From Burkholderiaceae bacterium (GTDB lineage: Bacteria; Pseudomonadota; Gammaproteobacteria; Burkholderiales; Burkholderiaceae): a stretch of 64,000 nucleotides of DNA. The DNA lies in assembly GCA_021166835.1 (NCBI GenBank), contig JAJPEN010000073.1, positions 1 to 64,000 on the forward strand. The letters are read 5' to 3'. Every line of letters starts with the position of its first letter. Position 1 is the stretch's first letter. The notes beneath the pieces are model-generated. The model was not told the origin of the DNA. It searched no databases and saw only the letters and a list, made by a program, of their open reading frames with translations. Shown here piece by piece: positions 199 to 18,205 of this stretch. The position numbers were made by a program, and so were the translations under genes.

Positions 199-825
199 CT
201 AGCCGACCGCTTGAGTCGCCGACACGATGGCGTGCTCGACGCCCCCGAGGAATAGCTCGGCGGCCAGCGTTGCGAGGTCCTCCGGGGACAGCCGGCCTTT
301 CTCCGAGTACCAGTTGTCGGTCCAGTTGATCATCCCGAAGAAAAGCATGGCCAGGGGCCGGGTGAGATACGAGCGCTCGATCAGTTCGGGATGAATGCTT
401 TGCAGCAGACGTTCGACGGAGCGGATTATCCGCCGCTCGGCCGAAACGATGAACTCGCGGTCTTTCGGCGGCAGGAAGTCGATGTCGCGCACCAGAACCG
501 CATGCTGGTGCCTGGACGTGGATCGGGTGTAGCTCTCGATCAGCAGCCGGGTGAACGTCACGAACTTGTCCCGAGGGGCCTCCGAGCTGCCGAATGCCTC
601 GTCGGCAAGTTCCGAGACCGCGTCCAGGTGCTCCGTAAGCATGACGCGGAGAATCTCGGTCTTGGATTCGAAATAGTGATAAACGCCGGCCTTCGAGATA
701 CCGGCGCCATCCGCGATCTCGTTCATCGAGGCACTGGCGAATCCCTTCACGGCGAACAGCTTTGCCGCCGTCTCGAGGATGGTTTGCTTGACCGCATCGT
801 GTTCGTTGGACCGGCTTCGCGCCAT
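199..825 (-). CDS. TetR/AcrR-family transcriptional regulator
   Basis: A 208-residue protein of normal TetR length. The N-terminal helix-turn-helix spans about residues 13-58, with the recognition segment GISKAGVYHYF at 42-52. The C-terminal half is a helical ligand and dimer domain whose ligand cannot be read from sequence. It is transcribed leftward 24 bases downstream of the acyl-CoA ligase gene, in the same operon. Many relatives sense acyl-CoA esters, such as PaaR for phenylacetyl-CoA, and bind CCGACCGG-type palindromes. Two such sites lie in the ligase/mutase intergenic region. The inference is that it represses both divergent transcripts until the CoA ester of the substrate appears. 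Confidence 0.9.
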   Translation of the reverse strand: MARSRSNEHDAVKQTILETAAKLFAVKGFASASMNEIADGAGISKAGVYHYFESKTEILRVMLTEHLDAVSELADEAFGSSEAPRDKFVTFTRLLIESYTRSTSRHQHAVLVRDIDFLPPKDREFIVSAERRIIRSVERLLQSIHPELIERSYLTRPLAMLFFGMINWTDNWYSEKGRLSPEDLATLAAELFLGGVEHAIVSATQAVG

Positions 826-849
826 GACCTGTTGCCCTACGCCTTACGT

Positions 850-2172
850 TCAACTGCCGCGGCGATGGACCCGAATCGCCTTGGCTTCGTAACGCGGCAT
901 CGAACCCACGGGGTTGCACTCCACTCGGACGCGAATGCCCAGCCGGGAATGGATCTTGTGCGCGATCGCGCCCTCGATGTCGGCGTCCGGCAGAACGCAT
1001 GAAGGCTCCCGCTCGACAGCCACGGTGATCTCTTCGAGCAATTGCTGCTCGCCGTCGATGTAGATGTGCCAGGCCTCCTTCACGACGCCTTCGGTCTCGG
1101 CGATCAGGTCCTCGATCTGGGTCGGAAACACGATTACCCCGCGGATCTTGAGCATGTCGTCGCTGCGCCCGATGATTCGCCCGACCTTCGGCAGGCCTGC
1201 ACGGCCGCAGGGACAGTCGTACGGTTTGTCGGACAGGCGCACGAGATCGCGGGTTCTCCAGCGAACTACCGGGCTCGCCTCGCGCTCCAGCGTCGTAATC
1301 ACGACCTCTCCGACCTCACCGGGCGCGACCGGCTTCATGGTGACCGGATCGACGATTTCCGTGATGATGGTGTCTTCGTTGATCAAGTGCATCTCGTCGA
1401 CTTCGTGCGAATGAGGGCACGAAATACCGATCACCGGCCCGCCTGCCTCGGTCGGGCCGTAGATATTCTGCGCCATGAAGCCGGGGGGCATCTCCGCTTC
1501 CAGCTGATTGCGAAACGCGGCCGAGATCGACTGACCGCCGAAGACGCCCACACGCATCTTCCAGTCGCGACGCGGATCGACGTTCATGCTCTTGGCGAGG
1601 TTCACCAGCGTCATCAACCATAGCGGCGACAGGCTGCAAGCAGTGTACCGGTGGTCGGTGAGCCACTTCACGACCAGTTCGCCGCGCCCCGGTCCGATGG
1701 GGAAATTCACCGCACCGTAGGCGGAAAGCCCGATATCCATGGCCAGTCCGCCTATCCAGAGGCCGTAGCCGTAGCCCTGATACACGCGATCGTCCGGCCG
1801 GATCCCCGAGCATCGAAGAATGCGTGTCATCTGCCTCGGCAGAAGTTCGTTCAGGTCGCGATCCGTCAGACCGAAGAGCACCGGGAGGCCGGTCGTGCCG
1901 GAGGTGGCGACGAAGCGACGAACGTTCGCAATGTCGGTCGTCAGCATCGGAAACGGATAGAGAGCACGCAGGTCGCTCTTTTCCATCGTCGGCATCGACG
2001 ACAGGGCATCGAAGTCGCAAAGATCGCGCGGCGACATGCCGAATCGCCGAAAGTGCCGAACCCATTCCGGCGACGCCTGCAGGCGCTGTCCGAACACCGA
2101 GAGTCTTTCCCGCTGGATCGCGAGGATGCCCTCCCGGTCCAATCCCTCGATCTCGGGATGCTCGAATGTCAT
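850..2172 (-). CDS. PaaK-type acyl-CoA ligase (AMP-forming)
   Basis: A 440-residue adenylate-forming ligase of the phenylacetate-CoA ligase group, predicted to activate a carboxylic acid to its CoA ester with ATP. Visible motifs are the P-loop TSGTTG at 90-95, YGPTEAGG at 238-245, TRDL at 307-310 and the hinge GRSDDMLKIRG at 335-345. I place the start at 2172 rather than the longer in-frame ATG at 2274. A TTGACC/TATCGT promoter and an operator lie at 2231-2261, so the longer start would be upstream of transcription, and AGGGGAG precedes the chosen ATG. The 2-hydroxyisobutyrate-CoA ligase of B12-mutase loci belongs to this same group, which fits the divergent mutase genes. The acid itself is unknown. 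Confidence 0.88.
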   Translation of the reverse strand: MTFEHPEIEGLDREGILAIQRERLSVFGQRLQASPEWVRHFRRFGMSPRDLCDFDALSSMPTMEKSDLRALYPFPMLTTDIANVRRFVATSGTTGLPVLFGLTDRDLNELLPRQMTRILRCSGIRPDDRVYQGYGYGLWIGGLAMDIGLSAYGAVNFPIGPGRGELVVKWLTDHRYTACSLSPLWLMTLVNLAKSMNVDPRRDWKMRVGVFGGQSISAAFRNQLEAEMPPGFMAQNIYGPTEAGGPVIGISCPHSHEVDEMHLINEDTIITEIVDPVTMKPVAPGEVGEVVITTLEREASPVVRWRTRDLVRLSDKPYDCPCGRAGLPKVGRIIGRSDDMLKIRGVIVFPTQIEDLIAETEGVVKEAWHIYIDGEQQLLEEITVAVEREPSCVLPDADIEGAIAHKIHSRLGIRVRVECNPVGSMPRYEAKAIRVHRRGS

Positions 2173-2230
2173 TGCTCCCACGTTGCTCCCCTGAAAATTG
2201 TGTCCTTGCCGCCGGATGGTGCGAGAGGCG

Positions 2231-2331
2231 ACGATATCCAAGTCCGACCGGACGGTCAATATCGTGTAAGTCATACCTCGCAGTGGTCTAGGCAGGTGTA
2301 TTTATTGACCGCCCGGTCGGTTGGATATACA
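2231..2331. promoter_or_regulatory. Divergent promoters with paired TetR-type operators
   Basis: Site A, CCGACCGGACGGTCAATA, is at 2244-2261 on the + strand. Site B has the same 18 bases with one change (A to G) on the - strand at 2303-2320. Each site contains a TTGACC -35 element. Leftward, TTGACC (2254-2259) is followed after 17 bases by TATCGT (2231-2236). Rightward, TTGACC (2305-2310) is followed after 15 bases by TATACA (2326-2331). A repressor bound at either site would cover the -35 box. The adjacent TetR-type protein is the obvious candidate; that link is inference. Confidence 0.7.
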
Positions 2332-2416
2332 CTTCGCTGCACATCACCTGTGTCTATTCAGCCGCCGCCCCCTGCGGGGGAGGCAACCGCGAGCACACCG
2401 GAAGCGGAGAAGACCG

Positions 2417-4063
2417 ATGAAACGAGAAACCGATTACGGGTATTCGATCAAGAGCTACTACACGCCGGAAGACGTTCCGGAGTGGAGTTACGAGACGAAC
2501 CTTGGCGATCCAGGATCGTTTCCGTACACGCGGGGCTATCACGAGCAGGGCTACCGAAGCCGCATGTGGACCCAACGGATGACTGCGGGGCTGGGCACCT
2601 CGAAGGAAGCCAACAAGGTGCTGCACAAGTATCGCGAGATGGGCCAGCGAGGAGGCATGTGCGTCATCAGCGACCGGGTCTTCTCCTCCTGCATTGACCC
2701 CGATCATCCGCTGGGCCGACGCGAAGCGGGCGTGCTCGGGTGGCCCGGCTGCTCCTTGCTTGAGTTCGAGGAGTTGATGGACGGCGTCCCGCTGACCGGT
2801 CAATCGATCACGCTGCTCGGGTCGTCTGCCCCGTCGGCGCTTCGCCTGGCTTACGTCGTTGCGCTCGCCGAGAAGCGCGGCATCGACCCGAGGGAAGTGC
2901 ACGGCAGCGTCATCGAATCGCCGTTCGAGAACTACTTCGGGCAGACGGACGTCCAGCCTTTCGACCTCAATCTGAAGCTGTTCCTCGACGCTTCCGAGTA
3001 CGTGATTCGGAACGGTATCCGAATGCGCGCCTGCATCATCAGCCAGCACTTCCAGGAATCGGGCGGCAACAACGCGCAGGCAATCGCTATCGAGCTCTCG
3101 ATGCTGAAGGAGCTCTGTGGTCTGCTCGTGGACGAACGCGGCCTGGATTTCGATGATGTTGCGCTGCTTCCCTACGAACTGGTAAGCGTCGGCTCCAGGT
3201 TCTTCGAGGAAATCGCCAAGGTACGAGCGACCCGAAGAATGTGGGCGCGCATGGCAAGGGAGCATTTCAAGGCGAAGAAGGACAAGTCGTGCCAGTTGCT
3301 CATCGCCGTACATACGTCCGGTCGCACGATGACGTACCAGCAGCCGCTGAACAACATCGCCCGCTGCGCCATCCAGACGCTGGCCGGTGCCATCGCGGGT
3401 TGCACCGCACTTGACAACGCGACGCTCGACAACGCCTACGCCGAGCCCTCTGCTCTGGCGGCGCGCCTGTCGCTGAACACCCAGCACATCGTTGCCTACG
3501 AAACCGGGGCCGCGGACGTCGTCGATCCCCTGGCCGGATCCTATTTCGTCGAGTGCCTGACGAACAGGGTCGAGGAAGCGGCCTATCGGATTCTCGAGGA
3601 GATCGATTCACTCGGCGGCATGATCGCCGCGATCGAGAAGGGCTACATACAGAACATGCTGCGCGAAGAAGCGAACAAGAAGTTCCGCGAGCTCGACAGC
3701 AACGAGCGCCTCGTCGTCGGCGTGAATCATCTTCCGCTACCCGAGGGCGAGGAGGACTTCCCGATTCCCGTCCAGGAAGTGCACGCGAGCGACTCCGAAG
3801 AAATCGCTGCGCGAATGCAGCAATGGAAGCAGACGCGCGATGTGGAACTCGTGAACCGGACACTGACGCGGCTGCACGAGGATGCGCGGCGCGGCGAGCG
3901 CTTCAACCTCATGCCGTCGATCATCGAGGCGGTGAAGGCCTACGCCACAGCCGGCGAGGTGATGGGCGTCATTCGAATGGCGCGGGGCCTCGACTACGAT
4001 CCGTTCAAGATGATCGATTGCCCGTTCCCCCTCCGGGAAGCGGCAAGTGAGCCCGTCGCTTAA
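2417..4063 (+). CDS. Divergent B12-dependent acyl-CoA mutase, large (substrate-binding) subunit
   Basis: A 548-residue protein with the TIM-barrel half of the methylmalonyl-CoA mutase family and no B12 domain; that domain is the next gene. Family landmarks kept are FPYTRGYHEQGYRSR (about 35-49), the catalytic-site His in SQHFQESGG (His211, equivalent to His244 of the Propionibacterium enzyme) and the VDPLAGSY region. By hand alignment Tyr89 is replaced by Thr56, Arg207 by Gln176, the DLPT loop is absent (SDRVF) and the TIQND motif is SVIES. Gln at the Arg207 position is shared with isobutyryl- and 2-hydroxyisobutyryl-CoA mutases and argues against a second free carboxylate on the substrate. 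The start at 2417 follows GGAGA; a longer frame from 2321 is upstream of any sensible ribosome site. Substrate unknown. Confidence 0.88.
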   Translation: MKRETDYGYSIKSYYTPEDVPEWSYETNLGDPGSFPYTRGYHEQGYRSRMWTQRMTAGLGTSKEANKVLHKYREMGQRGGMCVISDRVFSSCIDPDHPLGRREAGVLGWPGCSLLEFEELMDGVPLTGQSITLLGSSAPSALRLAYVVALAEKRGIDPREVHGSVIESPFENYFGQTDVQPFDLNLKLFLDASEYVIRNGIRMRACIISQHFQESGGNNAQAIAIELSMLKELCGLLVDERGLDFDDVALLPYELVSVGSRFFEEIAKVRATRRMWARMAREHFKAKKDKSCQLLIAVHTSGRTMTYQQPLNNIARCAIQTLAGAIAGCTALDNATLDNAYAEPSALAARLSLNTQHIVAYETGAADVVDPLAGSYFVECLTNRVEEAAYRILEEIDSLGGMIAAIEKGYIQNMLREEANKKFRELDSNERLVVGVNHLPLPEGEEDFPIPVQEVHASDSEEIAARMQQWKQTRDVELVNRTLTRLHEDARRGERFNLMPSIIEAVKAYATAGEVMGVIRMARGLDYDPFKMIDCPFPLREAASEPVA

Positions 4064-4088
4064 CCCGGCCATACGGTAGGCAAGCGTC

Positions 4089-4502
4089 ATGAACAAGGGA
4101 AATGGGCTCAAGGTCATCGTCTCGATGATCGGTCTCGATGGACACACGACCGGCGGCGAAGTCGTGTCGATGATTCTCCGCGATGCCGGGTTCGAGGTCG
4201 TCTACCTCGGCGTCAACCAGACGCCGGAGATGATCGTCGATGCAGCGATCCAGGAAGACGTCGATGCGATCGGGATCAGTTCGCATGCATCGAACTATCC
4301 GCAGATCGAGCGACTCATGCAGCTGATGAAGGAGCGCGAGCTGGACGACGTTCCGGTGATCTGCGGAGGCAACATCCCTCCCCAACAGATCGAACGCCTG
4401 CTCGCAAGCGGTGTCGCAAGGATCTTCACTCCCGGCAGCGGCGCGGACGAGATCGTCGATTACTTGGCGGCAAACGCCCGGAAGTCGCAGGCTCATGGCT
4501 GA
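4089..4502 (+). CDS. B12-binding small subunit of the acyl-CoA mutase
   Basis: A 137-residue cobalamin-binding Rossmann-like domain. The DxHxxG motif reads D17-G-H19-T-T-G22, with His19 the expected lower axial ligand of cobalamin. The ISSHAS segment and ICGGNIP correspond to the S-x-L and GG motifs that hold the nucleotide tail. It lies 25 bases after the large subunit, and its length matches the separate small subunits of isobutyryl-CoA (IcmB) and 2-hydroxyisobutyryl-CoA (HcmB) mutases. It should form a heterotetramer with the 2417-4063 product. Its last codons overlap the start of the GTPase gene by 8 bases. Confidence 0.95.
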   Translation: MNKGNGLKVIVSMIGLDGHTTGGEVVSMILRDAGFEVVYLGVNQTPEMIVDAAIQEDVDAIGISSHASNYPQIERLMQLMKERELDDVPVICGGNIPPQQIERLLASGVARIFTPGSGADEIVDYLAANARKSQAHG

Positions 4503-5460
4503 TCCGCATAGCACCGATCGCCTCGTGGCCGAGGTGACTTCCGGCAATGTCCGCGCCGGCGCACGGTTGATCAGCCGTATCGAACACGCCGGTGAGGGCA
4601 TCGTTCCCGTTCTCCAGTCGCTGTATCGAGTGGGTGGACGATCCCGGATCATCGGCGTCACCGGTCCCCCCGGGGCGGGCAAGAGCACGCTGATCGACAA
4701 GCTGATCGGCCATTGGCGTAAGCGCGGCCTGCGAGTCGCGGTCCTGGCTGTCGATCCATCGAGCCCGTTCTCAGGGGGCGCACTCCTCGGCGATCGCCTG
4801 CGCATGACGGCTCACAGCGGAGACGATGGCGTATTCATACGCAGCATGGCCTCGCGTGGTCGCACAGGCGGTCTCGCCGCAGCGGCACGCGATGCGCTCG
4901 TCGTCCTGGATGCCATGCCGTGGGATGTCGTGCTCCTGGAGACCGTGGGCGTCGGGCAGAACGAGACTGAGGTCATGCGGCACGCTTCGGTCGTCGTCCT
5001 GGTGCAGACCCCCATGGGAGGCGACGACGTGCAAGCCGCGAAGGCCGGGATCATGGAAATCGGGGATGTCCTGGTCGTGAACAAGGCCGACCATCCCGAC
5101 GCCGATCGCACGGCGCGCATGTTGAGGGACGTAGTTGCCCGCAGTCGGCGTCTGCATCCGGATCGCGTCTGGGCACCTCCGGTTCTCAAGTCGCAGGCGT
5201 CCAGGAACGAGGGCGTCGTGGAGGTGACCGAGCAGATCGACCGTTTCTTCGCGGTACTGGGGGCGAATCCGGAATTCGCGAAGTCCAGGCAGCGAGAGCG
5301 GGCGAGGCACCGTGTCGGCCAGATCCTTCGGGAACTCCTCGATCGCCATCTGGACTCCGGCGACGGCGCGTGGCTGGACGAGATGAGCGAACCGCTCCTG
5401 TCGAGGACCGCCGATCCTTACTCCGTTGCGGAAGAGCTGCTGTCGCGCGTGGTCGCGTGA
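4495..5460 (+). CDS. MeaB/ArgK-family G-protein chaperone of B12 mutase
   Basis: A 321-residue G3E-type GTPase that loads intact adenosylcobalamin into, and ejects damaged cofactor from, B12 mutases. The P-loop GPPGAGKST is at 57-65, followed by the VAVLAVDPSSPFSGGALLGDR switch region, the Mg/switch segment ETVGVGQNETEV and the guanine-specificity motif NKAD. A longer in-frame ATG exists at 4411, but the 4495 start gives a typical MeaB N-terminus and an 8-base overlap with the B12 subunit, indicating translational coupling. Its placement confirms that the mutase pair is a functional AdoCbl enzyme rather than a relic. Confidence 0.95.
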   Translation: MADPHSTDRLVAEVTSGNVRAGARLISRIEHAGEGIVPVLQSLYRVGGRSRIIGVTGPPGAGKSTLIDKLIGHWRKRGLRVAVLAVDPSSPFSGGALLGDRLRMTAHSGDDGVFIRSMASRGRTGGLAAAARDALVVLDAMPWDVVLLETVGVGQNETEVMRHASVVVLVQTPMGGDDVQAAKAGIMEIGDVLVVNKADHPDADRTARMLRDVVARSRRLHPDRVWAPPVLKSQASRNEGVVEVTEQIDRFFAVLGANPEFAKSRQRERARHRVGQILRELLDRHLDSGDGAWLDEMSEPLLSRTADPYSVAEELLSRVVA

Positions 5461-5558
5461 CGCTACGGGACCACAGGTTTTTCGCCACTTCTTTGCACCC
5501 GGCCCGCAGGACGGTCGGCCATTCAGCGAAGTCATTCGTCACAAGACAGGAGACGGAC

Positions 5559-6737
5559 ATGAACTGGTTCGGAATCAGCGCCACCGCGTCGTGGATCGCG
5601 ACGGCAGTCGTTACCGCAACAGTCGTTACCGCAGGAAGCGCATACGCCCAGCAGGAACCCATTCGGATCGGGTCCTTTCTTGCGATCACGGGCCCGGCCG
5701 CCTTCCTCGGCGACCCCGAGCACAAGACCCTCCAGATGTACGTCGAACGGATCAACGCCGAAGGCGGCGTGCTGGGCCGCAAGCTCGAACTCGTCGTCTA
5801 CGACGCCGGGGGCGAGGCGGAGAAGGCGCGCACCTTCACCAAGCGCCTGATCGAGCAGGACAAGGCGCACGTCATCGTCGGCGGCTCCACCACCGGCGCT
5901 ACGATGGCGGCGGCGCCGCTGGTCGAGCAGGCGAAGATCCCGTTCATCTCGCTCGCCGGCGCGGTCGTCATCATCGAGCCCGTGAAGAAGTGGGTCTTCA
6001 AGACGCCGCATACCGATCGCATGGCCTGCGAAAAGATCTTCACGGACATGAAGGAGCGCAACCTGCAGAAGGTGGCGATGATCTCCGGTGCGGGCGGTTA
6101 CGAGAGGTCGCTGCGCGCCGAGTGCCTGAAGGTTTCCGGCAAGTACGGCATCGAAGTCGTCGCCGACGAGAGCTACGGCGCTGCCGACACCGACATGACG
6201 GCGCAGCTCGCGAAGATCAGGAACACCCCCGGGGTGCAGGCGGTGCTCAACTCGAGCTTCGGCCAGAGTGCAGCGGTCGTTACGAGGAACTACAGACAGG
6301 TCGGAATGAACCTGCCGCTGTACCAGACACACAGCGTCGCGTCGAAGGAGTACATCAAGCTCTCGGGCGATGCCGCCGAGGGCGTGCGCCTGCCGGCCGC
6401 GGCGCTGCTGGTCTCGGAGATCCTGCCCGACAACAACCCGCAGAAGCCGGTCGTCACCGCGTACAAGCGCGACTACGAAGCGAAGTGGAAGTCCGAGGTC
6501 TCCACCTTTGGCGGGCACGCCTACGATGGCCTGATGATCGTGGTCGAGGCGATCAAGCGCGCCGGCACGATCGACCCCGAGAAGGTGCGCGACGAGATCG
6601 AGAAGACGAAAGACTACGTCGGCACCGGCGGCGTCGTGAACATGTCGCCTACCGACCACATGGGGCTGGACCTGAGCGCCTTCCAGATGCTCGAAGTGCG
6701 CAACGGCAACTGGACTCTCGTCGACAACAGCCGCTGA
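5559..6737 (+). CDS. LivK-type ABC transporter periplasmic binding protein
   Basis: A 392-residue periplasmic binding protein of the branched-chain amino acid/amide class. A signal peptide of about 30 residues with a hydrophobic Ala/Val core ends near AYA-QQ. The mature chain opens with IRIGSFLAITGPAAFLGD and has the class signature INAEGGVLGRKLELVVYD. The start at 5559 follows AGGAGA; upstream in-frame codons are not credible. It lies 98 bases downstream of the GTPase gene, probably in the mutase operon. No permease or ATPase genes are nearby, so it either uses a transporter encoded elsewhere or acts as an orphan receptor. It probably captures the acid that the ligase and mutase process. Confidence 0.9.
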   Translation: MNWFGISATASWIATAVVTATVVTAGSAYAQQEPIRIGSFLAITGPAAFLGDPEHKTLQMYVERINAEGGVLGRKLELVVYDAGGEAEKARTFTKRLIEQDKAHVIVGGSTTGATMAAAPLVEQAKIPFISLAGAVVIIEPVKKWVFKTPHTDRMACEKIFTDMKERNLQKVAMISGAGGYERSLRAECLKVSGKYGIEVVADESYGAADTDMTAQLAKIRNTPGVQAVLNSSFGQSAAVVTRNYRQVGMNLPLYQTHSVASKEYIKLSGDAAEGVRLPAAALLVSEILPDNNPQKPVVTAYKRDYEAKWKSEVSTFGGHAYDGLMIVVEAIKRAGTIDPEKVRDEIEKTKDYVGTGGVVNMSPTDHMGLDLSAFQMLEVRNGNWTLVDNSR

Positions 6738-9552: not shown

Positions 9553-10788
9553 TCAATCGGTCTTCGTCGGCGCGCCTTCCTTGTCCGCGCAACTGCGGAA
9601 GCCCGCGTAGATGTCGTTGCGCTCCGCGCCGAAGAAATTGCGATAGCGCGGATGGCGCATGCGCGGCGTGGTGGCGAACGACGCGCCGCGCAGAACCGGT
9701 CGGCCGTCGAACCACGGCGCGGAATAGGCGTGGTACGGATGCGACGAGAAGCCCGGGTACGGTGCGAACGCGCTCGACGTCCATTCCCAGACTTCGCCCC
9801 AGTGGAATGCGTCGCCCGCTTCGATCGCGGCACGTTCCCACTCGGCCTCGGTGGGCAGGCGGCGTCCGGCCCAGTTGCACCACGCGAACGCTTCGTGCTG
9901 CGTCAGGTGACAGGCGGGTAGCGTCGGGTCGAGCGCGATCCAGTCGCCGTTCCACCATCGTCGCCATTCGTGCGCCGTGCGCTCGAGGTAGCGCGGCGCG
10001 CGTTGCCGTCGGGAGCGCAGCCACTCGCGCCCGGCGTCGCTCCACCAGCGGTCCTGTTCGTAGCCGCCGGCTTCGACGAAAGGCAGGTATTCGGCCCAGC
10101 GAACGACTCGATCATCGATGCGATAGCCGGACATCTGCACCTCGTGCGCCCGACATTCGTTGTCGAAGGCGAAGCCCGCGTCGCCGAAGCCCAGGCGCCA
10201 CGGGCCGGCGTCGAACTCGATCGTCTGGCGTTTTCCGGTGAGCGAGGCTGGCGCGGGAGTTTCGGCGACTTCGAAGCCGAGCGCGTGCGCCATGTATGTT
10301 GCGGCTTCGTGATGCATGTCCTCGTGAAAGAGCGCCAGCCGGAAGAAATACAATCCCTCGTCGCTGCCGTCGGCAACGCGCAGCAGTCCGAGGGTGCGAT
10401 CGAGTTGCGTGCGCAGGTCGTCACGAGTCGCGTCCGCATCGGGCAGCGGCAGGTTCCAGCGCGTGGCGTGCGCGACCTTCGCCGAGTCGTAGAGGAGATC
10501 CGCTTCCTTTCGCACGCCCGGTTGGCGCGGTACGTCGGGATCCGCCAGCGCGCCGAGCGCGCGTTGTGGATTGCGTGCGATCCAGTATTCCTGGAACCAT
10601 CCGATGTGGCCCAGCTCCCACAGCGGCGGGTTCGATTCGGCGCTTCGTGGCACGACGAGCGTTTCGAGCTTTCGCTCGAAGGACGCGAAGGCCGCCAGCG
10701 TGTCGCGACGGCTCGCGACCAGCGCCTCGGCGAGCGCTTCGCTGCCGGCGCTGCGCATTGCGATGCCGGCGCTTCGATCATCGATCAT
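9553..10788 (-). CDS. senA: Selenoneine synthase SenA / EgtB-like iron enzyme
   Basis: A 411-residue protein with an N-terminal DinB-type helical domain and a C-terminal formylglycine-generating-enzyme-like fold, the EgtB architecture. The mononuclear iron triad is visible as His61 (LGHIGW) with His155 and His159 in HEDMHHE. The C-terminal domain shows RLPTEAEWERAA and GEVWEWTSSAF. EgtB makes the hercynyl-cysteine sulfoxide of ergothioneine, whereas the paralogue SenA joins hercynine to a selenosugar. I choose SenA because a senB-type gene starts 20 bases away on the other strand. EgtD, SenC and EgtC-like genes are not in the window. Alternative starts (for example Met11, position 10758) would leave more promoter room. 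Confidence 0.8.
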   Translation of the reverse strand: MIDDRSAGIAMRSAGSEALAEALVASRRDTLAAFASFERKLETLVVPRSAESNPPLWELGHIGWFQEYWIARNPQRALGALADPDVPRQPGVRKEADLLYDSAKVAHATRWNLPLPDADATRDDLRTQLDRTLGLLRVADGSDEGLYFFRLALFHEDMHHEAATYMAHALGFEVAETPAPASLTGKRQTIEFDAGPWRLGFGDAGFAFDNECRAHEVQMSGYRIDDRVVRWAEYLPFVEAGGYEQDRWWSDAGREWLRSRRQRAPRYLERTAHEWRRWWNGDWIALDPTLPACHLTQHEAFAWCNWAGRRLPTEAEWERAAIEAGDAFHWGEVWEWTSSAFAPYPGFSSHPYHAYSAPWFDGRPVLRGASFATTPRMRHPRYRNFFGAERNDIYAGFRSCADKEGAPTKTD

Positions 10789-10808
10789 TCGCGCCCCGAA
10801 CCATCGAA

Positions 10809-11765
10809 ATGAGGAAAGCGCAAGTCGTCATCGTGACACCGGCGAGCGCCGATGCCAACAACGGAAACTGGCGGACAGCGCAGCGCTGGTCGGGCTTTCT
10901 CGCCGACGATCATCGGGTGCGGGTGGCGAAGGAGTGGGACGACGGCGACGAAGCCCTGATGATCGCGCTGCACGCCCGCCGCTCGGCGACGTCGATCGCG
11001 GCGTGGCGCGCACGACATCCGACGCGACCGCTGCTGCTGGTGCTCACCGGCACGGATCTGTATCGCGACATCCCGGTCGACGGCGACGCGCGGCGCTCGC
11101 TCGAGTTGGCCGATCGGCTGGTCGTGCTGAACGAGCGTGGCCTGGCCGCGCTGCCCGAGCGATTCCGGCCCAAGGCGAGCGTGTTGCTGCAGTCGTGTCC
11201 GGCGCGCGTCCGCACAGCGAAGACGCAGCGGCTGCTGCGAGTGGTGATGGTCGGCCACCTGCGCGACGAGAAACGTCCGGACACCTTTTTCGAGGCCGTG
11301 CGCAGGCTCGCGGATCGTGCCGACATCGTGTTCGAGCACGTGGGCGCCGGGCTCGATCCGGCGCTCGCCGCCGAAGCGCGTGCGCTAATGGCGGGCGGCC
11401 TGCGCTATCGCTGGTTCGGCGCGCTCGGGCACGGGCGCACGCTGGCGCGGATCCGCACGGCGCACGTCCTCGTTCACGCGAGCCGCATCGAGGGCGGCGC
11501 GCACGTCGTGATCGAGGCGGTGCGCAACGGCACCGCGGTGCTCGCTTCGCGCATTGACGGCAACGTCGGCCTGCTCGGCGAAGACTACGGCGGCTATTTT
11601 CCGCTCGGCGATTCGGCGGCGCTCGCCGCGCTGCTCCGCAGGATGCGAGACGAGCCGGCATCGCTGGCGGCGCTGCAGGCGCAGTGCGATGCACGCGCGC
11701 CGTTGTTCGATCCGACTCGCGAGCGCGAAGCACTGCGGTCGATGCTCGACACCCTTCTGCGTTGA
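10809..11765 (+). CDS. senB: Selenosugar synthase SenB (TIGR04348-type glycosyltransferase)
   Basis: A 318-residue GT4-like glycosyltransferase whose opening, MRKAQVVIVTPASADANNGN followed by WRTAQRW, matches the TIGR04348 family as I recall it; that family was shown to include SenB. SenB makes a Se-glycoside from selenophosphate and a UDP-sugar for SenA. Glycosyltransferase features include LLVVLTGTDLY-like and VVMVGHLRDEKRPDTFFEA segments and the donor-site region SRIEGGAHVVIEAV. The ATG at 10809 gives the family's usual start; no strong ribosome site precedes it. It is divergent from senA with only 20 bases between starts. Selenophosphate synthetase (SenC/SelD) must come from elsewhere. 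Confidence 0.82.
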   Translation: MRKAQVVIVTPASADANNGNWRTAQRWSGFLADDHRVRVAKEWDDGDEALMIALHARRSATSIAAWRARHPTRPLLLVLTGTDLYRDIPVDGDARRSLELADRLVVLNERGLAALPERFRPKASVLLQSCPARVRTAKTQRLLRVVMVGHLRDEKRPDTFFEAVRRLADRADIVFEHVGAGLDPALAAEARALMAGGLRYRWFGALGHGRTLARIRTAHVLVHASRIEGGAHVVIEAVRNGTAVLASRIDGNVGLLGEDYGGYFPLGDSAALAALLRRMRDEPASLAALQAQCDARAPLFDPTREREALRSMLDTLLR

Positions 11766-11858: not shown

Positions 11859-12602
11859 ATGCCACTCGTACCGTCGGCCGAGCGCACGCTCAACCTGTTC
11901 GAAGCCTTCGAGGCGAGCGGCAAGCCGCTCGCACTCAGCGAGCTTGCGCAGCGCATGAACGTGCCCGTGAGCAGCTGCCACGGTCTGGTACAGACCCTCG
12001 TCGCGCGTGGCTACCTCTACGCGGTGAGCCGGCGCAAGGACTTCTATCCGACGCGACGGCTGTTCGACCTCGCACAGACGATCGTGCACAACGACCCCTT
12101 CCTCGAGCGGATCGGTTCCGAACTGCGGGTCTTGCGCGACGAAACGCGCGAGACGGTGATCCTCGGCAAGCGCCAGGGCGACGCCGTCCTCTATCTCGAC
12201 GTCGTCGAGGGGCCGCACACCGTGCGCTACACCGCCCGGCCGGGCGAATACAAGCCGCTCCATTCCAGTTCGATCGGGAAGGTGATGCTCGGCGCGCTGT
12301 CCGGCGATGCTCTCGCCGAGTGGCTGCGTTCGCACCCGTTGCCGGCGATCACGGGACGCACGCTCGTCGACGGCAAGCGCCTGCATCGCGATCTCGACGA
12401 AAGCCGCCGGCGCGGCTGGTTCATGACGCGCGGCGAGAACGTCGAGGACGTCACGGCGCTCGCCGTTGCGCTGTCGATCCGCGACGAGGTCTTCGGCCTT
12501 GCCGTCGCCGGCCCGTCGCATCGGATGGAGAAGCGCATCGACGATCTGGCTGCGCGAGTCGTCGCGGCGCGCCGGCGAATCGAGGAGGTGTTCCGCCAAT
12601 GA
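11859..12602 (+). CDS. IclR-family transcriptional regulator
   Basis: A 247-residue regulator with an N-terminal winged helix (about residues 5-65, with LALSELAQRMNVPVSSCHGL) and the C-terminal IclR effector-binding domain (about 75-245, including the SSSIGKVMLGAL segment). No clear Shine-Dalgarno precedes the ATG. The gene ends in an ATGA overlap with the crotonase gene, so regulator and enzymes are one transcript. The C-terminal domain probably senses the acid imported by the TRAP system or its CoA ester. Whether it activates or represses cannot be read from sequence. Confidence 0.93.
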   Translation: MPLVPSAERTLNLFEAFEASGKPLALSELAQRMNVPVSSCHGLVQTLVARGYLYAVSRRKDFYPTRRLFDLAQTIVHNDPFLERIGSELRVLRDETRETVILGKRQGDAVLYLDVVEGPHTVRYTARPGEYKPLHSSSIGKVMLGALSGDALAEWLRSHPLPAITGRTLVDGKRLHRDLDESRRRGWFMTRGENVEDVTALAVALSIRDEVFGLAVAGPSHRMEKRIDDLAARVVAARRRIEEVFRQ

Positions 12603-13387
12603 ACGGATACCGGCACCTGGGGATCGAGCGGCGCGACAGCGTGCTGCGCGTGACGATCGACCGACCCGAGCAGCGCAATCCGCTGAGTACCGAGGTGCTG
12701 GGCGAGCTGCGGCGGGCGTTCACCGAAGCGGCCGCCGACGACAGCTTGCGTGCGGCGGTCGTCACTGGCGCCGGCGAGAAGAGCTTCGCCGCGGGCGGCG
12801 ACCTCAAGGAGTTCGACAGGCTGCGCGGAACCGACGACGCCGAGCGGCTCTGGGCGCATGCGAACGAGGCGCTGCGCGCCGTGCGCGAGTTCCCGCTGCC
12901 GGTGATCGCCGCCCTGAACGGCGTTGCGCTGGGCGGCGGCGCCGAGCTCGCCGTCGCCTGCGATTTCCGCGTTGCGGCGCGACACGCGGCGATCGGTTTC
13001 GTGCAGGGCCGCCTGAACATCTGCACCGGCTTCGGCGGGGGCGCGGACCTCGTCGCGCTGGTGGGCGGGCAGCGCGCGCTCTCGATCCTGATCCGTGCCG
13101 AGACGATGGCTGCCGAGCAGGCACGCTCGATCGGCCTCGTCGACGAGATCGCCTCCGAAGGCGAATCGCTGGATGCATGCGTCGAGCGATTCCTCGAACC
13201 GATTCGCGCGCACGTTCCCCAGGTGCTGCGCGCGTTCAAGACGATCGCATCGGGTGACCGGCTCGCGTTGACGAGAGAACAGCGCGAGCAGCGCGAGCGT
13301 GCGGCGCTCGTCGCCACCTGGGTCCATCCCGATCACTGGCAGGCGAGCGACCGCTTCCTGTCGCGCAGCAAACGAGGAGCAGCATGA
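12599..13387 (+). CDS. Crotonase-fold enzyme lacking the second catalytic Glu (decarboxylase-like)
   Basis: A 262-residue enoyl-CoA hydratase/isomerase superfamily member. The oxyanion-hole regions are SFAAGGDLKEF and ALNGVALGGGAELAVACDF. In hydratases a second Glu lies in a PETxxGIIPG-type segment. Here the aligned stretch is VQGRLNICTGFGGGAD, with Gly where Glu should be. Loss of this Glu is also seen in methylmalonyl-CoA decarboxylase (ScpB/YgfG), which in E. coli sits beside the mutase Sbm. With a mutase gene overlapping its end by ATGA, a decarboxylase of a malonyl-CoA-type ester is the leading hypothesis. An ordinary hydratase is less likely. Confidence 0.85.
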   Translation: MNGYRHLGIERRDSVLRVTIDRPEQRNPLSTEVLGELRRAFTEAAADDSLRAAVVTGAGEKSFAAGGDLKEFDRLRGTDDAERLWAHANEALRAVREFPLPVIAALNGVALGGGAELAVACDFRVAARHAAIGFVQGRLNICTGFGGGADLVALVGGQRALSILIRAETMAAEQARSIGLVDEIASEGESLDACVERFLEPIRAHVPQVLRAFKTIASGDRLALTREQREQRERAALVATWVHPDHWQASDRFLSRSKRGAA

Positions 13388-15009
13388 ACCAGCGAAGCAC
13401 CGAAGCGCAGGCGCGGCCGCTTGCGCCCGGCGTCGGTACGGCGGTGCGCTCCGGCATCGAAGTGCCGGTCGTCGTCGATCCGACGCGCTTTCCCGTCGAG
13501 GATCCCGGAAAGCCCGGCGAGTTCCCGTTCACCCGCGGCATCTTCGCCGACGGCTATCGAGGCCGCTTGTGGACGATGCGGCAGTACTCGGGTTTCGGCA
13601 CCGCGGAGGAATCGAACGAGCGCTACCGGTTCCTCCTCGAGCGCGGCCAGACCGGACTGTCGGTCGCGCTCGACCTGCCCACCCAGTGCGGATTCGATCC
13701 CGACGAACCGATGGCCCGACCCGAGATCGGCAAGGTCGGCGTGTCACTGTCGAATCTCTCCGAGATGGAGATCCTGTTTCGCGGCATCGACCTCTCGCGC
13801 ATCTCGACGTCGTTCACGATCAACGGTACCGCGGCGATCCTCTATGCGATGTACATCGCCTGCGCCGACCGCACCGGTGTGCCGCGCGACAAGCTGACCG
13901 GCACGATCCAGAACGACATCCTGAAGGAGTACGTGGCGCGGGGAACGTGGATCTTCCCGGTGCGTCCGTCGATGCGGCTGATCTCGGACACGATCCTGTT
14001 CGGCAACCGCGAGACGCCGCGCTTCAACACCATCTCGATCGCAGGCGCGCACATGCGCGACGCGGGCTGCACGGCGGCCGAGGAGATGGCGTACACGCTG
14101 GCCAACGGACTCGCCTATGTCGACGAACTGATCCGCCGGGGCGGCAACGCCGACAGTTTCGCCCAGCGCCTGTCGTTCTTCTTCTACGTCCACATGGATC
14201 TCTTCGAGGAGATCGCCAAGTTCCGCGCGGGGCGTCGAGCATGGGCGCGGCTGCTGAAGGAGCGCTACGGCGTCACCGACCCGAAGGCGCAGATGTTCCG
14301 CTTCGGCGTCGTCTGCGGCGGCTCGTCGCTGGTGGCGCCGCAGCCGTACAACAACGTCGTTCGAGTGGCGATCGAGACGATGGCCGCGGTGATGAGCGGG
14401 GCACAGTCGATCTTCACCTGCGCGCTCGACGAGCCGTTCCAGATCCCCACCGAGTTCTCCGCCGAGCTTGCGCTGCGCACGCAGCAGATCGTCGCCTACG
14501 AGAGCGGGATCGCGCGTACCGTCGATCCGCTGGGCGGCAGCTATTTCGCCGAGCATCTCACGGACCGGATGGAGCAGCGCATCGATGCGCTGATGAAGGA
14601 GATCGAGGACTACGGCGGCGCGGTGAAGGCGATCGAGGACGGCTGGTTGCAGCTGCGCATCGCGCATCGCGCGCACGAGCGCAAGCTGCAGACCGACAGC
14701 GGCGAGCTGCCCGTCGTCGGTCTGAACTGCTTCCGCCATGAGAACCAGGCGGCAGCGCCCGAGGAAGTGTTCCGTGTCGATCCGCAGGCGAGCCGGCGGG
14801 TGCTCGAGAAGCTCGAGGCGGTGCGCGATCGGCGCAACCAAGCCGAGGTCGAGCGCGCGCTCGATCGCCTCGAACAGGCCGCGGGAGTCGACGACGAGAA
14901 CCTGATGCCCCATCTGATCGAATGCTGCCACGCCTACGCGACCGTCGGCGAGATGGTCGCGCGGTTGAAGGCGCAATGGGGCGAGTTCCGGGAGCCGGTG
15001 CGACTATGA
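13384..15009 (+). CDS. Methylmalonyl-CoA mutase-type large subunit
   Basis: A 541-residue TIM-barrel subunit of a two-subunit AdoCbl mutase. Aligned to the Propionibacterium enzyme it keeps Tyr89 (Tyr68 in RQYSGFGT), Gln197 (Gln176 in TIQNDILKEY), Arg207 (Arg186) and His244 (His223 in GAHMRDAG). The Arg-to-His spacing of 37 matches exactly. Tyr89 and Arg207 bind the free carboxylate of methylmalonyl-CoA, so the substrate should be a malonyl- or succinyl-type dicarboxylyl-CoA: methylmalonyl/succinyl, or ethylmalonyl/methylsuccinyl. ATGA overlaps on both sides couple it to the crotonase and the B12 subunit. No MeaB gene is in this operon; the one at 4495 might serve both mutases. Confidence 0.93.
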   Translation: MNQRSTEAQARPLAPGVGTAVRSGIEVPVVVDPTRFPVEDPGKPGEFPFTRGIFADGYRGRLWTMRQYSGFGTAEESNERYRFLLERGQTGLSVALDLPTQCGFDPDEPMARPEIGKVGVSLSNLSEMEILFRGIDLSRISTSFTINGTAAILYAMYIACADRTGVPRDKLTGTIQNDILKEYVARGTWIFPVRPSMRLISDTILFGNRETPRFNTISIAGAHMRDAGCTAAEEMAYTLANGLAYVDELIRRGGNADSFAQRLSFFFYVHMDLFEEIAKFRAGRRAWARLLKERYGVTDPKAQMFRFGVVCGGSSLVAPQPYNNVVRVAIETMAAVMSGAQSIFTCALDEPFQIPTEFSAELALRTQQIVAYESGIARTVDPLGGSYFAEHLTDRMEQRIDALMKEIEDYGGAVKAIEDGWLQLRIAHRAHERKLQTDSGELPVVGLNCFRHENQAAAPEEVFRVDPQASRRVLEKLEAVRDRRNQAEVERALDRLEQAAGVDDENLMPHLIECCHAYATVGEMVARLKAQWGEFREPVRL

Positions 15010-15422
15010 ACCCTCAGATCGAAAAGACCCCGCTGCGCGGCAAGCGGATACTCGTGGCCAAGCCCGGGCTGGACGGCCACGACGTGGGCGCCAAGGTGGT
15101 TGCGCTCGCACTGCGCGACGCCGGCGCCGAGGTCATCTACACCGGGCTGCGAAAGACGCCCGGCTACATCGCCCGCGTCGCTGTCGACGAGGACGTCGAC
15201 GCGGTCGGTCTGTCGATCCTCTCCGGCAGCCACAACGAACTCGTCGCCGACACGCTCGAGCAATTGCGGGAGCTGCAGGGCGAGGACATTCCGGTGTTCG
15301 TAGGAGGCACGATTCCCGCGCCCGATCAGCAGGGACTGCGCGAGCGGGGCGTGCGCGAGGTCTTCACCAGCGACATTCCGCTGGCCGACGTCGTCGCGGC
15401 GATCGCGAGGTTGCTGTCGTGA
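15006..15422 (+). CDS. B12-binding small subunit of methylmalonyl-CoA mutase
   Basis: A 138-residue cobalamin-binding domain with D23-G-H25-D-V-G28 (DxHxxG, His25 the cobalt ligand), GLSILSGSH and FVGGTIPAPD. The start at 15006 overlaps the stop of the large-subunit gene (ATGA), and its end overlaps the GTG start of the CoA-transferase. The separate small subunit differs from the fused enzymes of most proteobacteria and resembles the archaeal and IcmA/B arrangement. Confidence 0.95.
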   Translation: MNPQIEKTPLRGKRILVAKPGLDGHDVGAKVVALALRDAGAEVIYTGLRKTPGYIARVAVDEDVDAVGLSILSGSHNELVADTLEQLRELQGEDIPVFVGGTIPAPDQQGLRERGVREVFTSDIPLADVVAAIARLLS

Positions 15423-16543
15423 CGCTTCCGTTGCGTGGCAAGCGCATCATCGAGGTCGGGCACATGCTGATGGGCCCGTACTGCGGGATGCTGCTCGCCG
15501 ACCTGGGCGCCGAGGTGATCAAGGTCGAGCCGCCCGGAGGCGACATCGCGCGCAGCATCAGTCCGCACAGGATCGGGCCGCACAACGCGTATTTCGCCAG
15601 CCTGAACCGCGGCAAGCGCAGCGTCGTGCTCGATCTCGCCTCCGAAGACGGCCAGGCGGCCCTCGCGGCGCTGGTTCGCGATGCGCATGGCCTGGTCACG
15701 AACCTTCGACCCAAGGCGATCCGCAAGCTCGGGCTCACCTATGAACGGCTCCGGCAGTTCAATCCCAGGCTCGTCTGCGTCGCCCTCACGGGATACGGGC
15801 TCGACAGCCCCTTCGCCGAGCGGCCCGCGTACGACTACGTGATCCAGGCGCTCACCGGCATCATGTCGCTGACCGGCGATCCCGCCGGTCCGCCGACGAA
15901 GACCGGCTACTCGGCGGTCGACAACTCGGCCGGCATCATGGGCGCAGTCGGCCTGCTCGCCAAGCTCGTGCAGGGCGAGGGCGGGCAGGTCGACATCGCG
16001 ATGTACGACGTGATGCTCTCGCAGCTCAACTACCTCGCCGGTGCCTGGCTGAACGCCGGCGAGCGCGCCGGGCGTTACCCGGCGTCCGCGCATCCGTACA
16101 TCGTGCCTGCGCAGATCTTTCGCACCGCCGACGGCTGGCTGACGCTGTTCATCACGCACGACGATTTCTGGCGCACGTTCTGCCGGGAGATCGGTCGCGC
16201 GCAGTGGATCGACGACGAGCGCTTCGCGACGATGGCCGCGCGACGGAACAATCGCGACTTCGTGCTGCATTCGATCGGCGAGGTGCTCGCGGCCGAGCCC
16301 ACGAGTCGCTGGGTCGAGCGCCTGGCACCGCTGGGCGTCGTTGCGGCCGGCGTGGAGACGCTCGAGAACGCGCTGGCGAGCGAGCAGACCGCGGCGCGCA
16401 ACATGGTTGTCGAGATCGCGATCGACGGGGGCACGCTGCGCGTGGTCGGCAACCCGGTCAAGTTCTCCGATGCGCGGGACGACTTCCGCGCTCCGCCGCT
16501 GCTCGGCGAGCACGGTCCGTTCGCGGCGGAGAAGGCGGGGTAA
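15419..16543 (+). CDS. CaiB/BaiF-family (class III) CoA-transferase
   Basis: A 374-residue class III CoA-transferase, which moves CoA between acids through an aspartyl-CoA anhydride intermediate. Family markers are the N-terminal [29 protein letters not shown], the NRGKRSVVLDL block and GYSAVDNSAGIMGA, which holds the likely catalytic Asp. The start is GTG in a GTGA overlap with the B12 subunit. Donor and acceptor are not readable. Given the mutase and the dicarboxylate-type TRAP genes downstream, succinyl-CoA:dicarboxylate transfer is a reasonable inference. Confidence 0.92.
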   Translation: MTLPLRGKRIIEVGHMLMGPYCGMLLADLGAEVIKVEPPGGDIARSISPHRIGPHNAYFASLNRGKRSVVLDLASEDGQAALAALVRDAHGLVTNLRPKAIRKLGLTYERLRQFNPRLVCVALTGYGLDSPFAERPAYDYVIQALTGIMSLTGDPAGPPTKTGYSAVDNSAGIMGAVGLLAKLVQGEGGQVDIAMYDVMLSQLNYLAGAWLNAGERAGRYPASAHPYIVPAQIFRTADGWLTLFITHDDFWRTFCREIGRAQWIDDERFATMAARRNNRDFVLHSIGEVLAAEPTSRWVERLAPLGVVAAGVETLENALASEQTAARNMVVEIAIDGGTLRVVGNPVKFSDARDDFRAPPLLGEHGPFAAEKAG

Positions 16544-16645
16544 CGCCCACGGTCCCGCAGATGCCATACGAAGAAATTCCCGCCGCGATGCGGCGAGAAC
16601 ACCGACCGCCGGGCTGAAGGAACGGCGAACCACCGAGGAGGAATC

Positions 16646-17662
16646 ATGGGAAATCGATTCGCGAAGTACGGGACTGCGCTGATCGCCGCAGCGACCTTCA
16701 CGGTCGCCGGCGTCGCCGCCGCGCAGACGCTGAACCTGAAGATGGCGCACCAGTGGCCGCAGGACGAGTCCGACTACGTGATCGCAGCCGGCATCAAGTT
16801 CGCGCAGGAAGTCGAGAAGCGCACGAACGGACAGGTCAGGATCTCGATGTTCCCGGCCGAGTCGCTGGTGAAGGCGAGCGCCACGCACACGGCGCTGAAG
16901 AACGGGACGGTGGATCTTGCGATCTACCCGTACATCTACTCGGCGGGCGCAATCCCGCAGATGAACATGGTCCTGCTGCCGGGGCTGTGGCGCAATCACG
17001 ACGACGTGTTCGCCTTCCGCAACTCGGAGGCGTGGAAGCAGCTGGAGAAGAAGGCCGAAGACTACGGCTTCAAGACCCTGTCGTGGATCCAGATCTCGGG
17101 TGGCGTCGCCACGACCGGCAAGGAGATTCACGAACCGAAGGACGTCTCCGGAATGAAGCTGCGCGCAGCCGGCAAGTTCATGGAATTCGCGCTGCAGAAG
17201 GCGGGCGCGACGACGGTGTCGATGCCGTCGTCCGAGAACTACAGCGCGATGCAGACCGGCCTGCTCGACGGAATGTGGACGTCGTCGGGGTCGTTCGGCG
17301 CGTACCGGATGTACGAGGTCGCGAAGTTCTACAACTCTCCGGAGGACTACAGCGTCTACTTCACCATCGAGCCCATCGCGATCAGCATGAAGACCTGGAA
17401 CAGGCTCTCTCCCGAGCAGCAGAAGATCTTCGTCGAGGTGGGCCACAGCCTCGAGCAGCCGGCACTCGAAGGCGCGAAGCGCGAGGACAGGCGCGTGGCA
17501 GAGCTCTTCGCGAAGAACGGCGTGAAAGTCGAGAAGATGACCGAGGCGTCGTGGAAGAAGTGGCAGGACTGGTTCCGCCAGTACAGCTTCGAGAAATTCA
17601 AGGCCGACGTACCCGGCGGTGAGGAACTGCTGAAGGCTGCCGGCGGCGACGCGACCCGGTGA
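16646..17662 (+). CDS. dctP: TRAP transporter periplasmic solute-binding protein (DctP family)
   Basis: A 338-residue extracytoplasmic receptor of a TRAP transporter. The signal peptide ends near AAA-QTLNLKMAHQWP (about residue 27). DctP-family features include GVATTGKEIHEPKDVSGMKLRA, where the Arg in LRA normally binds the ligand's carboxylate. The ATG follows a strong GAGGAGGAA site. The 102-base gap after the CoA-transferase shows no hairpin, so transcription probably continues. The GTGA overlap with dctQ couples the receptor to the membrane subunits. Confidence 0.94.
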   Translation: MGNRFAKYGTALIAAATFTVAGVAAAQTLNLKMAHQWPQDESDYVIAAGIKFAQEVEKRTNGQVRISMFPAESLVKASATHTALKNGTVDLAIYPYIYSAGAIPQMNMVLLPGLWRNHDDVFAFRNSEAWKQLEKKAEDYGFKTLSWIQISGGVATTGKEIHEPKDVSGMKLRAAGKFMEFALQKAGATTVSMPSSENYSAMQTGLLDGMWTSSGSFGAYRMYEVAKFYNSPEDYSVYFTIEPIAISMKTWNRLSPEQQKIFVEVGHSLEQPALEGAKREDRRVAELFAKNGVKVEKMTEASWKKWQDWFRQYSFEKFKADVPGGEELLKAAGGDATR

Positions 17663-18177
17663 GCCCGAAAGACGCGAACGCGGCGGTGTCCGCGCCTCGC
17701 TCCGCGGCGACGTTGCGGTGGATCGCCGCGCTCACTCGCGTGTCGGGCGTCCTCGTCGGCATCGGTGCGTTCGCGATCGCGTTGCTCGTCACGTACGAGG
17801 TGCTCGCGCGCACTTTCTTCGGATCGACCACCGGCTGGGTCAGCGACGTCGCAACGTACCTGATGGGGTTCATCGCCTTCGGCGGCGCGGCCTACGCGCT
17901 CGCCGAGGGCGCCCACGTCGGTGTCGACCTCGTCGTCACGCGCGTTTCGCCTGCCACGCGCGCGATCCTCGCATGGACGGCGGATCTCGTCGTGCTCGCG
18001 GTCGTTTCGCTGCTCGCCTGGCTGAGTATCCAGTTCTGGTGGGAGGCATTCGAGAGCGGCGAGAAATCGTGGGGCCTCTTCGAGGTCGCGCTGTGGATCC
18101 CGTACTCGTTCTTCGCGCTGGGGATGCTCTGGCTGCTCGTCGTGCATCTCGCGCAGATGTTCGACCGACGACACTAG
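17659..18177 (+). CDS. dctQ: TRAP transporter small membrane subunit (DctQ family)
   Basis: A 172-residue protein with four predicted transmembrane segments (about residues 27-47, 62-82, 102-122 and 140-162). It has the DctQ-type segment GWVSDVATYLMGFIAFGGAAYAL. The start is GTG overlapping the dctP stop. It pairs with the DctM subunit encoded next to form the Na+- or H+-driven TRAP channel. Confidence 0.92.
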   Translation: MSPKDANAAVSAPRSAATLRWIAALTRVSGVLVGIGAFAIALLVTYEVLARTFFGSTTGWVSDVATYLMGFIAFGGAAYALAEGAHVGVDLVVTRVSPATRAILAWTADLVVLAVVSLLAWLSIQFWWEAFESGEKSWGLFEVALWIPYSFFALGMLWLLVVHLAQMFDRRH

Positions 18178-18205
18178 CTCCGGTATAAACGCACCCTACG
18201 AACCC

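Follow-up and report, generated by a model that had tools for sequence, protein, structure and literature searches.

A 64,000-nucleotide stretch of Burkholderiaceae bacterium DNA (assembly GCA_021166835.1, contig JAJPEN010000073.1, positions 1 to 64,000; hereafter the window) carries a split adenosylcobalamin (AdoCbl)-dependent acyl-coenzyme A (acyl-CoA) mutase that belongs to a separate, apparently uncharacterised clade. We tentatively propose, at somewhat below even probability, that its locus is an inducible catabolic module in which a ligase-made alpha-branched acyl-CoA is rearranged by the mutase, with 2-methylglutaryl-CoA to adipyl-CoA as a specific but speculative candidate reaction where clade members lie near aromatic-ring reductases. 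The large subunit (548 aa; 2417..4063, plus strand) is followed by the B12-binding small subunit (137 aa; 4089..4502, plus strand), with the DxHxxG motif as LDGHTTG and Met at the Lys604 position, and by a MeaB-type GTPase chaperone (4495..5460, plus strand). A PaaK-type acyl-CoA ligase of 474 aa (850..2274, minus strand), assigned by family and PDB matches, is transcribed divergently. The initial annotation of this DNA had described ligase, split mutase and MeaB GTPase as one divergent locus, and our annotation confirms this. Literature searches, with most subscription journals outside their coverage, returned no paper that we recognised as dealing with the clade.

Active-site residues of the mutase

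The protein has the MM_CoA_mutase domain, the DxHxxG B12-binding domain and the active-site His of the superfamily, and 4r3u, a 2-hydroxyisobutyryl-CoA mutase (HCM), is the PDB entry that matches it best in sequence as well as in structure. Alignment of 158 clade rows revealed that Thr56 (Tyr89 site of methylmalonyl-CoA mutase, MCM), Ile84 (HCM Asp site), Gln176 (Arg207 site) and His211 are invariant, in agreement with the four assignments made in the initial annotation. Gln210, which precedes the active-site His211, Arg87 of the DR motif, Arg204, R49, T52 and R54 are likewise present in 158/158 rows, and His299 (Gln330 position) and Tyr253 in 157/158 each. Leu replaces Phe287, and the DLPT motif is missing. 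The 5req chain, titled a Y89F mutant, has F in the column of Thr56, so this column fixes the Tyr89 position directly; the remaining MCM residue numbers (Arg207, Gln330, Lys604 and others) are assumed. We also take MCM Gln330 and small-subunit Lys604 to be adenosyl contacts, and Asp at HcmA position 117 presumably has a role in HCM.

The substitutions by Thr at Tyr89, Gln at Arg207 and Leu at Phe287 suggest an enlarged acyl pocket. The Gln at the Arg207 site suggests that the substrate has no carboxylate where methylmalonyl-CoA or succinyl-CoA has one. The monocarboxylyl-CoA substrate proposed in the initial annotation is not established, a longer dicarboxylyl-CoA being possible as well. Family membership and the plausibility of propionyl-CoA as a product of methyl-branched acids would fit an MCM serving propionyl-CoA derived from methyl branches; we give this hardly any credence, and reject MCM membership, because the carboxylate binders Tyr89 and Arg207 are replaced in 158/158 rows, and a Sulfuritalea genome of the clade (G004) has another mutase above the NCBIfam methylmalonyl-CoA mutase cut-off (1279 vs 876 bits).

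That the enzyme is an HCM variant is very improbable. The structural match 4r3u has Gln at the Arg207 site as in the clade, and ligase, split mutase and GTPase also stand together in Methylibium, where the plasmid-borne HCM copy (L051) is likewise split and accompanied by an AMP ligase and MeaB. The clade nevertheless differs from HCM in having Thr for Ile, Gln for Tyr243 and a changed Lys604 position, and it forms a clade of its own; Ile84 instead of Asp in every row led us to reject HCM membership, and neither a lyase nor a 3-hydroxybutyryl-CoA dehydrogenase is among the six annotated genes at 199-6737. Isobutyryl-CoA mutase and its fused form IcmF (4xc6, 5cjw) were rejected as well: IcmF shares the fold and the Gln at the Arg207 site, but at the Tyr89 and Arg207 sites the clade has Thr + Gln instead of Phe + Gln, and the window mutase is unfused to its GTPase, is 24-25% identical over the aligned part, and scores 117.5 bits with the IcmF model against a cut-off of 1500.

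Analysis of the small subunits revealed that DxHxxG is kept in 36/36 clade members, with Met at the MCM Lys604 position in 29/36 and Val in 7/36. Among the reference small subunits, the motif pattern recognised 14 and missed a fifteenth, IcmF; 12 of the 14 have Lys at this position, a Paraburkholderia protein has Met and one Deltaproteobacterial copy Arg. The adenosyl contacts therefore look, from the alignments, changed in both subunits (His at Gln330, Met or Val at Lys604), which the initial annotation had missed. The enzyme is still likely to be a working mutase, because His211, R49, T52, R54 and DxHxxG are all conserved.

Phylogeny and distribution of the clade

Of the 7997 candidates scored in the protein search, 2235 had E 1e-20 or better, and all the matches listed, the best 120 of the 2235, are at least 75% identical. 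Genome contigs hold 38 loci at 67-82% identity; at the other 12 loci identity does not exceed 39%. Clade members occur in records named Sulfuritalea, Sterolibacterium, Magnetospirillum, Desulfosporosinus, Syntrophus and Syntrophorhabdus; two of the loci, L037 and L038, are apparently one contig in two assemblies. One homologue belongs to Magnetospirillum sp. 15-1, a denitrifier available in culture (PMC7285207).

In two trees, both with long branches, the clade is separate at 100/100 from the MCM, HCM, Xanthobacter and iaa-context rows, with a stem of 1.55 in the second tree. The first tree lost 10 rows, 7 of them clade loci, and kept 31/38 loci plus the window; the second, which alone holds IcmF and MeaA-like rows, lost 21 rows, comprising 17/38 clade loci (truncated, overextended or redundant), L043, L047, L048 and a short MCM fragment, and sampled 21 of the 38 loci plus the window. 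Six of the 12 distant loci were included, and the rows standing for ethylmalonyl-CoA mutase and Streptomyces IcmA are proteins MeaA-like by length and unnamed Streptomyces proteins rather than characterised enzymes. The initial annotation had put forward such a tree as a check, and the clade indeed falls outside the characterised mutase clades included. A new substrate specificity is plausible and is supported by the separate clade, and the earlier reading of a new acyl-CoA rearrangement is partly supported.

In the second tree the clade groups at 99/98 with six rows, from Paraburkholderia, Novosphingobium, Terriglobia, genome G018 and two Deltaproteobacteria, none of them with His at the His244 column. 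L040, L042, L059, L064, L065 and L079 (Novosphingobium, Terriglobia, Paraburkholderia, G013, G027 and G018) carry related mutases without His at the His244 column. One of these, the Deltaproteobacterial locus L065 (883-9248, genome G027), holds three mutase large subunits (by BLAST) in a row with three small-subunit-like open reading frames (ORFs) and a MeaB-like ORF, the small-subunit-like and MeaB-like ORFs being judged from their N-termini; mutase matches in G027 total 13.

The clade is sparse in the surveyed orders. In the order of G004 it occurs in one of 200 genomes, G004 itself, the survey centre; in that of G009 it occurs in six of 297, of which G006, G009, G012, G014 and G019 were known beforehand and G292 is new. 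The iaa-operon mutase IaaGH of indoleacetate degradation is also a split mutase of anaerobic aromatic catabolism, according to PMC8360864. The iaa-context rows, recognised from gene order and N-termini and including no characterised IaaG, differ from the clade in keeping Tyr89 and Arg207 and in forming their own 100/100 group. Membership in the iaa type was rejected, as G004 carries clade and iaa-context mutases on different branches.

Neighbouring genes and the Xanthobacter locus

Neighbours were counted by tblastn (E 1e-12, query coverage of 45% or more, flanks of up to 10 kb on either side) at the 38 loci, many of whose flanks end at contig ends. The small subunit lies near the mutase in 36/38 loci and the MeaB GTPase in 23/38. 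The conserved ligase neighbour, which the initial annotation had expected of a distinct clade, is recurrent: a PaaK-type ligase is found in 23/38 loci, in 20 at 57% identity or more and in 3 at 29-40%. Pairwise divergences of ligase and mutase are correlated (Mantel r 0.89, P 0.0002, n=19 of 22 loci after three truncated loci were dropped), to which whole-genome kinship could contribute. LivG is near the mutase in 11/38 loci and DctM in 8/38. The window ligase has its best PDB match in the phenylacetate-CoA ligase 2y27 (207.9 bits), compared with 110.6 bits for the 2-hydroxyisobutyryl-CoA synthetase 6hdw.

Next to the ligase, and likewise on the minus strand, the window has a TetR-family regulator (199..825), assigned by Pfam (TetR_N + TetR_C_24). 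TetR relatives occur near the mutase in 25/38 loci, at 57-69% identity in 7, 44-45% in 2 and 26-39% in 16, the last of which may be unrelated to the window protein. The start codons of the divergent ligase and mutase genes are 142 bp apart, and between them lies a palindromic TetR-operator-like site, GACCGCCCGGTCGGT (2307..2321, no strand). The 350 bp that precede the mutase contain ACCGNNCGGT in 5/39 sequences (L007, L008, L009, L010 and the window) and in none of the other 34, with 0.34 expected from mononucleotide shuffles that keep base composition only. At the other end of the locus is a Peripla_BP_6 substrate-binding protein of the branched-chain-amino-acid ATP-binding cassette (ABC) type (5559..6737, plus strand), with relatives of 25-66% identity near the mutase in 10/38 loci. 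No cobalamin riboswitch reached the Rfam gathering score in the window, where two tRNAs are the sole Rfam matches; their genes lie at 1-137 on the plus strand, and the window edge truncates the first.

The initial annotation had compared this layout to that of 2-hydroxyisobutyrate degradation; the closest layout found, which it had missed, is the plasmid locus Xaut_5034-5045 of Xanthobacter autotrophicus Py2, whose Xaut_5043 we take to be a pivalyl-CoA mutase. This locus shares TetR, split mutase, MeaB, PaaK-like ligase, AMP ligase and branched-chain-type ABC genes with the clade loci, so the module is of a known kind. A pivalyl-CoA or isovaleryl-CoA-type mutase for short alpha-quaternary aliphatic acids, the functional equal of the Xanthobacter enzyme, is accordingly a minor but real possibility. 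Both mutases have Gln before the active-site His, both lack DLPT, and both have a residue smaller than Tyr or Phe at the Tyr89 site (Leu in Xaut_5043, Thr in the clade); in an approximately unbiased test, sisterhood of the clade and the Xanthobacter pair was not rejected (p 0.152). Against functional equality, Xaut_5043 is 32% identical to the window mutase, stands on a separate branch in the free tree and has Asn instead of Gln at the Arg207 site, Xaut_5044 keeps the Lys that the clade replaces with Met or Val, and the ligases are 26% identical.

Link to 3-methylbenzoyl-CoA-type reductases

Analysis of the clade genomes revealed class I benzoyl-CoA reductase subunit C above cut-off in 15/35, vs 5/200 in the order of G004 (Fisher P 1.8e-10, with an imperfect control, the 35 genomes spanning several orders). 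By analogy with the iaa mutase, this enrichment and the nearness of the ligase to phenylacetate-CoA ligases could point to an aryl-branched substrate, 2-phenylpropionyl-CoA, converted to 3-phenylpropionyl-CoA that would feed benzoyl-CoA. We consider this improbable: PaaK-type ligases may also activate aliphatic acids (6hdw), and no aryl-propionate gene was identified near the clade, though no search was aimed at one.

In five of the 35 genomes (G006, G011, G013, G015 and G016) the distance from the clade mutase to a BcrC-type gene is about 25 kb or less, with 0.75 expected (P 0.001, kinship ignored; 53 BcrC-type hits used, weaker ones left out); the five represent few lineages and are not independent. 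All have the C, B, A and D subunits, and in G013 the reductase genes are directly upstream of the mutase on the same strand. The subunits scored resemble the Mbd type: the C subunit of G016 scores 610 bits with MbdN (9g87) vs 87 with BzdN, its B subunit 524 bits with MbdO vs 68 with BzdO, and the C subunit of G013 530 bits with MbdN vs 106 with BzdN. The G016-type C subunit occurs at 61-100% identity in 7/35 clade genomes (the five above, G014 and G019), and a weaker homologue (48-51%) in three more. Within the order of G009 (297 genomes), 10 genomes have an MbdN-like gene (E 1e-90), 6 have the mutase and 3 have both (P 0.0005, five of the six mutase genomes having been known beforehand); at the same threshold no MbdN-like gene was found in the 200 genomes surveyed from the order of G004.

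According to PMC4424350, the mbd pathway of Azoarcus sp. CIB combines an MbdON-type reductase with a TetR regulator, an ABC transporter and a CoA ligase; 3-methylbenzoyl-CoA yields 3-hydroxy-6-methyl- or 3-hydroxy-4-methylpimelyl-CoA, and the lower pathway is assigned to Orf1-9. That text names no mutase, in contrast to the B12 mutase near the reductase in the five clade genomes.

Proposed function of the module

In the proposed module, an acid would be imported into the cell and converted to its CoA ester by the PaaK-type ligase. The AdoCbl mutase, formed by the large and B12-binding subunits and serviced by the MeaB GTPase, would then shift the CoA-carbonyl group to the neighbouring carbon, in the direction that turns an alpha-branched into a less branched acyl-CoA for beta-oxidation; expression would be induced. 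For the reductase-linked part of the clade, thiolysis of 3-hydroxy-4-methylpimelyl-CoA would, by our own derivation, give 2-methylglutaryl-CoA, and movement of its CoA-carbonyl group to the methyl carbon would give adipyl-CoA. Such a reaction would amount to isobutyryl-to-butyryl chemistry on a longer side chain and would agree with the loss of Arg207. The carboxylate would stand two carbons further out than in methylmalonyl-CoA. In its full form, as an AdoCbl-dependent 2-methylglutaryl-CoA mutase making adipyl-CoA for anaerobic degradation of methylbenzoate or methyl-alicyclic acids, with the adenosyl Gln/Lys pair replaced by His and Met or Val, the proposal is doubtful. No report of this reaction was found in the literature searches.

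Several observations weigh against the proposal. 2-Methylglutaryl-CoA is also open to direct beta-oxidation. An MbdN-like gene at 60% identity or more is missing from 28/35 clade genomes, mostly metagenome assemblies that may be incomplete, and in the order of G009 the clade mutase is absent from 7 of the 10 genomes with an MbdN-like gene. The reductase-linked loci L006, L013, L015, L016 and L017 are without a PaaK-type ligase of 35% identity or more, and 20/38 loci carry that ligase instead of the reductase; of the two clade copies in G011, one is next to a PaaK-type ligase and the other in a reductase cluster. In the window, whose data start at base 1, no BcrC-type gene was found. The scanned part of the cluster proteins gave no NCBIfam match to ring-cleaving hydrolase or dehydrogenase models of the benzoyl-CoA pathway, and in Deltaproteobacterial loci the mutase is accompanied by an AMP ligase, with an MmgE/PrpD partner in 4/38 loci and a fumarate-reductase-like flavoprotein in 2/38. 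The word "mutase" has 0 occurrences in the main texts of PMC4424350, PMC4268860 and PMC5874301. Given the many clade genomes without the MbdN-like gene, the MbdN-like genomes in the order of G009 without the mutase and both kinds of copy in G011, clade members may act on different substrates or in different pathways.

The MmgE/PrpD loci are L021, L030, L032 and L034, each with an AMP ligase and three of the four with TRAP transporter genes; the MmgE/PrpD protein of L032 is nearest to IRG1/cis-aconitate decarboxylase. Interconversion of glutaryl-CoA and methylsuccinyl-CoA at the PrpD and flavoprotein loci was considered and set aside for lack of evidence.

Other gene groups in the window

A second mutase gene group lies at 11859-19516 (plus strand), with an IclR-type regulator and an enoyl-CoA hydratase-like stretch near 12600. 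Its large subunit (13384-15009, plus strand) keeps Tyr89 and Arg207, has Ala for Tyr243 and makes up a separate 100/100 group together with L080, L081 and L091 rows; a small-subunit ORF (14922-15422), a CaiB-type CoA-transferase (15419-16543) and the TRAP genes DctP (16646-17662) and DctM (18206-19516) follow. The selenoneine biosynthesis gene senA (9553-10788, minus strand; NF041186, 499.5 bits, cut-off 420) is divergent from senB (10296-11765, plus strand; TIGR04348, 438.6 bits, cut-off 300). Perhaps another acyl-CoA catabolic cluster lies at 23911-28122 (plus strand), where an additional CaiB-type CoA-transferase is accompanied by an acyl-CoA dehydrogenase and, near 25254, an enoyl-CoA hydratase-like stretch.

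Implications for the mutase family

To our knowledge, few AdoCbl-dependent acyl-CoA rearrangements are known, and the clade, if the proposal is true, would add a new specificity to these mutases. The changed adenosyl positions (His299, and Met or Val at Lys604) offer a natural test of Co-C bond activation in the family, and the linkage to the reductase makes the question of the lower pathway for 3-methylbenzoyl-CoA directly testable.

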